Shown in pieces: positions 28,150 through 60,543 of a stretch of 64,000 bases of DNA. The position numbers were made by a program, and so were the translations under genes. The stretch is from Rossellomorea orangium (lineage in GTDB: Bacteria; Bacillota; Bacilli; Bacillales; Bacillaceae_B). The notes under the pieces are model-generated. The model worked only from the letters and a program-made list of their open reading frames with translations. It did no database searches and was not told where the DNA came from. Location: NCBI RefSeq assembly GCF_019334305.1, contig NZ_JAHWGH010000005.1, positions 14,882 through 78,881 of the forward strand, written 5' to 3'. Numbering within the stretch: the first letter of the stretch is position 1; the number at the start of each line of letters is the position of its first letter.

Positions 28150-28178
28150 GAATATAATTCTTAGGAAAAACCATAATA
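28150..28178 (+). promoter_or_regulatory. Sigma-G-type promoter of the SASP gene
   Basis: GAATA at 28150-28154 and CATAATA at 28172-28178 with a 17-bp spacer fit the forespore sigma-G consensus GHATR-N17/18-CATNHTA. Transcription would start near 28186, giving a leader of about 137 nt. Confidence 0.75.
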
Positions 28179-28187
28179 CCTAGTAAC

Positions 28188-28287
28188 AAGGCAGCAACAA
28201 GCCTTCTCTAAACCTCGCTGGGTTACGCCATATATAGATGGTCGCTCATGGAATAGCGGGCTGGTGCAACTCCAGCTGACCCAACCA
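28188..28287 (+). ncRNA. Folded 5' leader with tRNA-like cloverleaf before the SASP gene
   Basis: A first hairpin AAGGC/GCCTT (28188-28205) opens the leader. A closed four-way junction then follows. The outer helix TGGGTTA (28219-28225) pairs with TGACCCA (28277-28283), 7 bp. It encloses GCCAT/ATGGT (227-231/238-242 of this thousand), CGCT/AGCG (243-246/255-258) and GCTGG/CCAGC (260-264/272-276). The last arm has a 7-nt loop TGCAACT that resembles a tRNA T loop, and ACCA follows the outer helix directly. At 65 nt it is too short for a standard tRNA and lacks the D-loop GG. It is not annotated as a tRNA for that reason. Possible leader RNA, riboregulator or tRNA mimic. Confidence 0.6.
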
Positions 28288-28322
28288 AAAAAATCTTACA
28301 CATTTTAAGGAGATGACAGATT

Positions 28323-28541
28323 ATGCAACAGCAACAATCTCGCAGCAATTCATCTAACCAACTAGTAGCTCCAGGAGCTCAACAAGCAATCGACCAAATG
28401 AAGTACGAAATCGCTTCTGAATTTGGCGTACAATTAGGACCAGATGCAACAGCTCGTGCTAACGGTTCTGTAGGTGGAGAAATCACAAAACGCCTAGTTC
28501 AAATGGCTGAACAACAAATCGGTGGCGGGTACCAAAAATAA
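28323..28541 (+). CDS. sspB: Alpha/beta-type small acid-soluble spore protein
   Basis: A 72-aa SASP with both family signatures: the GPR protease cleavage region ([28 protein letters not shown]) and [13 protein letters not shown]. These proteins coat spore DNA, protect it from UV and heat, and shift photochemistry to spore photoproduct, which the SplB enzyme encoded at 55225-56253 repairs. AAGGAGATGACAG precedes ATG. Expression is expected in the forespore from the sigma-G-type promoter upstream. The symbol sspB is by position and type; paralogs exist elsewhere in such genomes. Confidence 0.95.
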
Positions 28542-28640: not shown

Positions 28641-30026
28641 TCACGTATTATTGACCATATTTGCAGGGTTGATCCATTGATCATATTGTTCTTCCGTGAG
28701 GTAACCTGATTCAATGGCTGCTTCTTTTAAGGTGGATCCATTTAGGTGGGCCTTTTTCGCAATCTCGGCTGCCTTTTCATATCCGATGTGTGGATTTAAA
28801 GCCGTCACAAGCATCAATGATCGTTGCACAAAGTCTTCAATCACCTCAGTATTAGCTTCAAGCCCCTTCACACATTTATCATTAAAGGATTTGATTCCAT
28901 CGGTGAGAAGGCGGACGGATTGAAGCATATTATAAATGATAACCGGTTTGAACACATTCAATTCAAAGTTTCCCTGGCTGGCTGCAAATCCGATTGCTGC
29001 ATCGTTTCCGAAGACCTGCGTCGCAACCATCGTCACGGCCTCACTTTGTGTAGGATTCACTTTCCCGGGCATGATGGAACTTCCCGGTTCATTAGCAGGG
29101 ATCGAGAGTTCTCCGATACCGCTTCGGGGACCGCTAGAAAGCCACCTGACATCGTTGGCCACTTTCATTAAATCTGCGGCTAACGCCTTAACCGCACCAT
29201 GTACGTACACCATTTCATCATGGGATGTCAGGGCGTGAAACTTATTGTCAGAGGAAACGAACTTGATCCCAGTCTGGACTTCCAATTGTTTCGCAACCTT
29301 GTCACCGAACGTGGGATCTGCATTGATACCTGTTCCTACGGCTGTTCCTCCGATGGCCAAGTTGACTAGACGCTGTACCCCTTCTCTAGTCATACTATAG
29401 GATTTTTCCATCATGGAGCGCCATCCGCTGATTTCCTGACCCAGTGTCAAAGGAGTGGCATCCTGAAGATGCGTGCGTCCGATCTTTATTATGTCCTTGA
29501 ATACATGTTCTTTATCTTTCAGTGTTGCAATGAATTCCTGAAGTACAGGAAACAGCTTTGACTCGATTTCCTGAAAAGCCGCAATGTGCATAGCAGTCGG
29601 AAACGTATCATTGGAACTTTGGGACATGTTTACATCATCATTAGGGTGGACCAACTCACCTGAACCATTCTCGGCCAGAATTTCATTGGCACGATAGGCA
29701 ACCACTTCATTTACATTCATATTGGATTGTGTTCCGCTCCCCGTTTGCCAGACAACCAAAGGGAAATGTGTGTCCCACGTCCCATCAAGGATTTCGTCGC
29801 AAGCCTGCCCGATTGCCTTCATTTTGTCTTCAGACAGCTTTCCGAGTGAATGATTGACCACTGCAGCCGCTTTCTTCAGCTGTGCGAAGGCATATGTAAC
29901 TTCGATGGGCATCTTTTCAGTTCCAATTTGGAAATTCTCTTTGCTACGCTGGGTCTGGGCACCCCAATATTTTTCTTTCGGCACCTTCATTTCTCCTATT
30001 GTGTCACGCTCTATACGATATTCCAT
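28641..30026 (-). CDS. fumC: Class II fumarate hydratase
   Basis: A 461-aa homotetrameric TCA-cycle enzyme interconverting fumarate and malate (citG in B. subtilis). Family motifs: [14 protein letters not shown], the active-site His region [19 protein letters not shown], and the catalytic SS-loop signature [13 protein letters not shown]. The start MEYRIERD at 30026 has GGGAGG seven bases upstream. Length is standard. Monocistronic by layout; the roughly 520-bp upstream gap holds a repeat array rather than another gene. Confidence 0.97.
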
Positions 30027-30240
30027 GCTCATTCCTCCCTTAAAAAGTATTGTCTACTTCCATATTTCCACTAAATCGTTTCATCTAACCTTTTTCTGAA
30101 AAGTTTATTAGCTACATTTGACTTTATTCACAACTAAATTAACTAATTCAACTGTTAGGGAACTTGGAATCTGCCTTTTGAATGGCAGTGAGAAAGAATG
30201 AGCGTACGTATTAACATGGAATAAAGAAAATTCGACACCA

Positions 30241-60323: not shown

Positions 60324-60357
60324 ATCGTTAAACATAATATGTATCGTTTAATAGAAT

Positions 60358-60446
60358 GTTTCCTACGCTGGTATCAGCCAGTTCAGGTTCAAAGGGTCAG
60401 CATCTACAGGATACAATCTCAACCGGCCATTCCGGTCCCCCTACAC
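60358..60446 (-). promoter_or_regulatory. TPP (THI-box) riboswitch
   Basis: The minus strand carries the THI-box core ACCCTTTGAACCTGAACTGG followed by CTGATACCAGCGTAGG, and an upstream GGGG..GGTTGAGA half. This is the conserved TPP aptamer. A terminator lies just downstream, so high TPP shuts the thiamine-precursor operon off. Confidence 0.96.
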
Positions 60447-60543
60447 ATTGAATATGAAATTAAACGTGATCTTCTTTCCTACTGTGCCATAGAACGGATC
60501 GTTAATCAAGTATTTACTTTTCATTTTGATAAAATCCATATAT

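Follow-up and report, generated by a model that had tools for sequence, protein, structure and literature searches.

A tRNA-Gln-like cloverleaf conserved in the leaders of alpha/beta-type SASP genes in Bacillales

Introduction

SASPs are abundant spore proteins, and those of the alpha/beta type protect the DNA of the spore. In a 64,000-nt stretch of the Rossellomorea orangium genome (contig NZ_JAHWGH010000005.1, positions 14,882 to 78,881; the window), a gene of this type is preceded by a leader that appears to fold like a tRNA. Is this cloverleaf real, to what kind of RNA does it belong and what may it do for the spore message? We approached these questions by comparing the leader with those of its relatives, with tRNAs and with known structured RNAs.

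Results

The SASP locus and its leader

The gene in question (28323-28541, plus strand) encodes a 72-aa alpha/beta-type SASP (Pfam PF00269, E 2.7e-22), and a protein identical to it is present in Rossellomorea records. Downstream, on the opposite strand, lies fumC (28641-30032), which was present in 49 of 96 loci, most of the others having flanks shorter than 1 kb. Upstream, GAATA (28150-28154) and CATAATA (28172-28178), separated by 17 nt on the plus strand, resemble the sigma-G consensus. This sigma-G-like promoter (28150-28178) would place the transcript start near 28186 and give a leader of about 137 nt. The part of the leader between this predicted start and the cloverleaf (28186-28218, plus strand) contains a small hairpin, AAGGC/GCCTT (28188-28192/28201-28205), found also in relatives from the genus. 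The Shine-Dalgarno sequence AAGGAG is located at 28307-28312.

Other loci provided additional observations. The leaders of SASP paralogues L039, L040, L043, L044 and L076 (upstream of 3001) appear short by eye, and their promoter spacer CCATGTGTTTT, or a near form of it, is by eye the reverse complement of the start region AAAACACATGG. The window also contains a TPP riboswitch (RF00059) on the minus strand at 60343-60452.

Structure of the cloverleaf in the window

RNAfold predictions and the comparison of relatives define a cloverleaf of four helices on the plus strand at 28219-28283. Its acceptor-like helix P1 has 7 bp, formed by the 5' strand UGGGUUA (28219-28225) and the 3' strand UGACCCA (28277-28283). 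A D-like arm (28227-28242) follows, with 5 bp (28227-28231/28238-28242) and a loop that carries the AG common in relatives (28232-28237). The arm at the anticodon position (28243-28258) has 4 bp (28243-28246/28255-28258) and an 8-nt loop. The T-like arm (28260-28276) consists of 5 bp (28260-28264/28272-28276) closed by the 7-nt loop TGCAACT. ACCA, a discriminator-like A plus CCA, follows at 28284-28287 and ends 35 nt ahead of the SASP gene. The promoter boxes, the 5-bp hairpin, the junction with helices of 7, 5, 4 and 5 bp, the TGCAACT loop and the ACCA all lie where the first-pass annotation had placed them. Its remark that the D loop lacks GG is also borne out; AG is found there instead, as is usual with a T loop of the G55 type.

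The RNAfold optimum of the leader is the same junction with one pair moved, as U28277 pairs with G28259 and not with A28225, which gives 6 bp in both P1 and the T stem. Among relatives, the form with 7 and 5 bp is the conserved one. Folding of the single sequence is weak (z of -1.21 for the window leader and -1.72 for the window element).

Covariation and conservation among relatives

Searches with the SASP protein and of genomes yielded loci of relatives in which the cloverleaf stands directly ahead of SASP genes. We aligned 98 elements from 97 chosen sources with a covariance model (alignment A3). Most Rossellomorea repeats, near-duplicates and six loci without SASP were omitted, as were L147, L155, L160, L170, L192, L194, L202, L215, L217, L220, L221 and L082, among which L220 and L221 repeat places already present as L132 and L133. 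Filtering at 85% identity left a non-redundant set of 87 elements.

Results showed that 94.3% of the cells in A3 are paired and that 17 of the 20 pairs have changes on both sides. Double-changed cells numbered 296, whereas 500 shuffles gave 74.4 +/- 7.9 and slid controls no more than 35. Fitting A3 to the model structure favours such counts; a MAFFT alignment of 15 elements (A2; 14 distinct) is in agreement, with 98.2% of cells pairing and both-sided changes at 7 of 20 pairs. By helix, 97.0% of the P1 cells are paired, with double changes at six of seven pairs, compared with 92.5% (four of four) for the D-like arm and 85.4% (four of four) for the middle arm; the T-like arm is paired in 97.7% of cells. 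Over the 87 elements the mean folding z is -2.96, with 78 below -1.5, and in ensembles predicted with flanks a probability of 0.5 was reached by P1 in 77 and by the T stem in 84 of the 98 elements. The cloverleaf is thus real: the single sequence folds hardly above chance, and the covariation of relatives settles the question. Compensatory changes in related leaders, on which the first-pass annotation had made its proposal depend, are plentiful in both alignments, and its reading of the long SASP leader as carrying a tRNA mimic is supported.

Conservation concentrates at positions familiar from tRNAs. In the non-redundant set we found U1 in 80 elements, G2 in 87, G3 in 85, C70 in 84, C71 in 87 and A72 in 81. 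The weak U1-A72 pair is mostly kept, being A-U in family f17 and C-G in Domibacillus. The T loop has T54 and A58 in all 87 elements and C56 in 83. RCCA follows the outer helix in 83 of the 87 and in 93 of all 98; the five elements without it carry AAAA (L079 and L128), GCCT (L103), CCCA (L214) and AACA (the second L145 copy). Element length is 52-85 nt in 94 of 98 and reaches 132 nt, the middle arm being enlarged in L169, L205 and L214 (102-132 nt). Two loci carry tandem cloverleaves ahead of one SASP gene (L103:2841-2965 and L145:622-762), with the second cloverleaf having a T loop of the TTC type and no CCA.

The surroundings of the element are regular as well. A -10-like CAWAHTA occurs within 75 nt upstream in 68 of 98 elements, at a median of 29.5 nt 5' of the cloverleaf. 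A Shine-Dalgarno-like match starts 9-24 nt 3' of the element in 96 of 98, and the start codon lies 21-38 nt 3' of it, likewise in 96; the remaining two are upstream copies of the tandem pairs.

Kinship to tRNA-Gln

When the elements were compared with 31 own-genome tRNA species at the acceptor, T stem, D stem and position 73, tRNA-Gln was the closest in about 83.5 of 87 cases, ties being shared. The refined model's two other matches in the own genome are tRNA-Gln genes. The likeness comprises mostly U1-A72, G2-C71 and G3-C70, a GCC/GGC D stem, the T arm and the CCA. The element differs from tRNA-Gln in its arbitrary anticodon arm, a T loop that is mostly UGCAA, the usual A73 and its position within an mRNA. 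A tRNA-type 7-bp acceptor, a 5-bp T stem with a 7-nt loop and CCA are present, the exceptions being those given above. Identification as a tRNA-Gln-like leader RNA is well supported by these sequence comparisons. Such an RNA is unable to decode in the usual way, because the arm at the anticodon position is highly variable in sequence and may be nearly absent or as long as about 100 nt. The origin of the element is most simply explained by capture of a tRNA-Gln, though convergence might instead have produced the likeness.

An ordinary tRNA was ruled out, as the first-pass annotation had judged from the length of 65 nt, the D loop without GG and the 8-nt middle loop: the regular 5-bp anticodon stem with a 7-nt loop is absent in the window, where the stem has 4 bp. 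ARAGORN found no tRNA in the window and none across 27 leader loci. RF00005 gave no match at the elements of the window, 11 loci and 12 further leader loci, and the element is absent from the 86 tRNA matches which that family gives in the own genome. The first-pass annotation had also regarded a known, unrelated Rfam family as a possible objection; no family overlaps the window element even at E 10. In a scan of the window and 23 other leader loci no Rfam family reached its cut-off over an element, the overlaps found, at L149 and L167, being weak antisense matches to Plastid-ycf2 that score far under the family cut-off. A cobalamin riboswitch had been considered on account of GGTGNNANTCC..CTGACCC, but its Rfam family gave no match even at E 10 in the window and 11 loci, nor any in 12 further leader loci. 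We take the GGTGNNANTCC motif, presumably shared with that riboswitch, as a likeness to the T loop.

A separate tRNA-Gln-like gene was noted at L179:680-830, called tRNA-Leu(cag) by ARAGORN and scoring 56 bits with RF00005, with an irregular anticodon stem. It has an upstream CATACTA box resembling the sigma-G -10 and a terminator-like hairpin 3' of the gene, and is perhaps a stand-alone spore-stage pseudo-tRNA.

Covariation at the elbow

The elbow of a tRNA is made by contacts of D-loop residues G18 and G19 with positions 55 and 56 in the T loop. We tabulated residue 55 against the D loop, skipping three of the 98 elements. GG is present in the D loop of 12 of 17 elements with T55 vs. 9 of 78 with G55 (Fisher p 1.9e-6, uncorrected for kinship), and 64 of the 78 G55 elements carry AG without GG. 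A cruder earlier parse had given GG in 14 of 17 and 13 of 80, respectively. Families f44 and f10 contain both residue-55 states, each with the fitting D loop. When lineages were collapsed by hand, with mixed families assigned to their majority state and eight named loci omitted, the table became 5/2 vs. 2/23 (p 0.0019). Exceptions to the rule are T55 without GG in f17 and f9, and G55 with GG in f19, Domibacillus and a few others. From this pattern we infer that an L-shaped tertiary contact would be kept, A18-G55 replacing G18-U55 while G19-C56 stays constant.

Distribution

Loci L127-L221 (95, two of them repeats) were mostly chosen for model matches and some for DNA matches. In 93 of them the model matched with an E of at most 1.3e-6, and a SASP gene is present in 87 of these 93. 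In the six without one, five matches are tRNA-Gln and one (L179) is the tRNA-like gene described above. Of 101 genomes sampled evenly across the host order, Bacillales, at least 47 have a match of a length other than 74-75 nt, the length of tRNA-Gln; this is a count by match length, with the SASP gene checked for part of the 47. These genomes fall in 23 families, in each of which SASP-bearing loci were verified, and with verified loci in f22 and f29 as well, at least 25 of the order's 47 labelled families have the element. Outside the order, all matches listed measured 74-75 nt across the class (sample of 299 genomes, 27 of the host order) and 74-85 nt across the phylum (sample of 149 genomes, two of the host order), and no match of the SASP-leader type was found among them. 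The 13 outside-order loci that were checked, all from the class sample, are tRNA-Gln.

The 5' flank and the Shine-Dalgarno region

Upstream of the element, position -3 is a pyrimidine in 85 and position -2 a purine in 84 of the 87 non-redundant elements; the window has C and G. Own-genome tRNA leaders (n = 76) show the same trend in weaker form, with a pyrimidine at -3 in 60 and a purine at -2 in 49. U at -1 is typical of RNase P sites, as a preference and not a strict rule; it does not dominate here (27 of 87 elements vs. 37 of 76 tRNA leaders). Mutual information showed nothing strong for pairing of -3/-2 with the element. The base pairing also provides the RNase P substrate features of a 12-bp T-acceptor stack with a T loop, assuming that the two helices stack.

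A switch between the T arm and the Shine-Dalgarno site was rejected, since their mean predicted pairing over 97 leaders is negligible (0.009 and 0.005). The Shine-Dalgarno site is predicted to be partly hidden (mean unpaired 0.37), mostly by the early coding sequence. The value was 0.31 with the element shuffled, and the real element gave the higher value in 60 of 97 leaders.

Discussion

We propose that the element derives from tRNA-Gln and forms a 5' module of an mRNA made under sigma-G control. RNase P would recognise it, while the encoded CCA would hold off RNase Z, which would otherwise sever the leader from the message; the cloverleaf may also boost SASP translation. According to the available text of PMC4919913, RNase P recognises the T-acceptor stack, the elbow and the 3' end, and the D loop appears dispensable; CCA is described there as an antideterminant for RNase Z, and PMC12710915, again in its available text, reports an interaction of RCCA with RNase P. 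An enzyme that reads these parts has no need for an anticodon arm, and RNase P alone need not preserve the elbow, given that the D loop is apparently dispensable. Recognition by RNase P is made more likely by the retained RCCA and by the conservation of the 5' flank, and less likely by the lack of a dominant U at -1. A translation effect is favoured, by analogy, by cis-tRNA experiments in which such leaders placed ahead of the Shine-Dalgarno site raised translation in vitro 2- to 6.3-fold (PMC9142559, available text). The kept RNase P features and this published boost together favour an RNase P-recognised module that aids translation, to which we give an even chance as a mechanism. The fuller account is more tentative and falls somewhat short of that: a captured tRNA-Gln may have become a permanent, ligand-free 5' cap made by RNase P and a recruiter of ribosomes, a natural cis-tRNA that helps to process, stabilise and translate the message in the forespore and whose elbow was rebuilt as A18-G55 in place of G18-U55.

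Several of the same observations could be read differently. The element might act only as a constitutive cis-tRNA booster, its L shape touching the ribosome close to where translation starts and no processing taking place. Besides the published gain, the tight distance to the start codon, the elbow covariation and the lack of a predicted off state between T arm and Shine-Dalgarno site speak for it; the spacing, however, may simply reflect a short leader. Changing ACCA to UAAU in the cis-tRNA assay had a small expression cost (PMC9142559, available text), so that a pure translation role leaves the conserved RCCA, along with the Y(-3)R(-2) flank, unexplained. We therefore regard a booster alone as rather unlikely, though it deserves serious weight. 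A passive structured barrier to exonuclease at the 5' end, with the tRNA likeness due to ancestry alone, would agree with a structure maintained despite sequence drift and lying close to the inferred 5' end. Since a plain hairpin would suffice for this purpose, and T loop, elbow pairing and RCCA would then not persist, we find it improbable.

Still less probable is a sensor, in which the tRNA-Gln look-alike would bind GluRS, GatCAB or a small molecule and thereby adjust how much of a glutamine-rich protein is made. Most elements do preserve positions 1-3 of the tRNA-Gln acceptor, and the yjdF riboswitch offers a precedent for a ligand-sensing tRNA-like aptamer (PMC9142559, available text). But no conserved anticodon or pocket was seen among the aligned elements, the discriminator is mostly A where the own tRNA-Gln has G, and a pairing that would switch the Shine-Dalgarno site is absent. 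As for a non-functional tRNA relic or a chance fold, the single-sequence folding only mildly above shuffles would suit it, but compensatory changes across families and the location ahead of SASP genes in 25 or more families leave it hardly any probability.

The proposed RNase P-recognised module can be set beside known systems. In E. coli, the thrS leader contains tRNA-like parts within an mRNA leader and imitates the anticodon arms of tRNA-Thr for its own synthetase, whereas in the SASP element the anticodon arm is the free part. Non-tRNA substrates of RNase P share a tRNA-like helix stack, and tRNAOther of B. cereus is encoded by a pseudo-tRNA gene of its own rather than in an mRNA leader. 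The latter is likewise a tRNA-like RNA of a Bacillus relative, with no translation function according to the available text of PMC3399842. Pre-tmRNA, pre-4.5S and plant-virus tRNA-like ends have RCCA in common with the element (PMC12710915, available text), which unlike them is a putative substrate situated in the leader of a spore mRNA. In kind, the yjdF riboswitch comes closest. It is a ligand-responsive tRNA-Lys-like leader whose T loop hides the Shine-Dalgarno sequence in the off state; both are four-way cloverleaves of mRNA leaders with tRNA kin, an elbow of D-like and T-like loops and a position upstream of the Shine-Dalgarno sequence (PMC9142559, available text). The SASP element differs in resembling tRNA-Gln rather than tRNA-Lys, carrying RCCA, preceding SASP genes and lacking the T-arm/Shine-Dalgarno off state. 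The yjdF family of Rfam was unmatched in the window, 11 loci and 12 further leader loci, and the extended purine-rich J1/2 of yjdF is absent, the gap between P1 and the D stem being by eye usually a few nucleotides or fewer.

The kinship to tRNA-Gln, the conservation of RCCA and the elbow covariation go beyond the first-pass annotation. We found no report of a cloverleaf in SASP leaders among the matches listed from open PMC full texts, and a term search of a survey of novel RNAs (PMC8632094) brought up nothing relevant to the element. Known tRNA-like folds in the leaders of bacterial mRNAs are few, and the natural published case that we found is a riboswitch operated by a ligand. If our reading is true, the SASP leaders would add a second case that is simpler and widespread, placed before genes for abundant spore proteins. 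The switch between residue 55 and the D loop would provide a natural experiment in rebuilding the tRNA elbow, and the element opens to testing both the making of mRNA 5' ends by RNase P and a natural translation boost by a cis-tRNA. Spore formers may thus carry a tRNA look-alike within a spore mRNA that helps to process, protect or boost the message.
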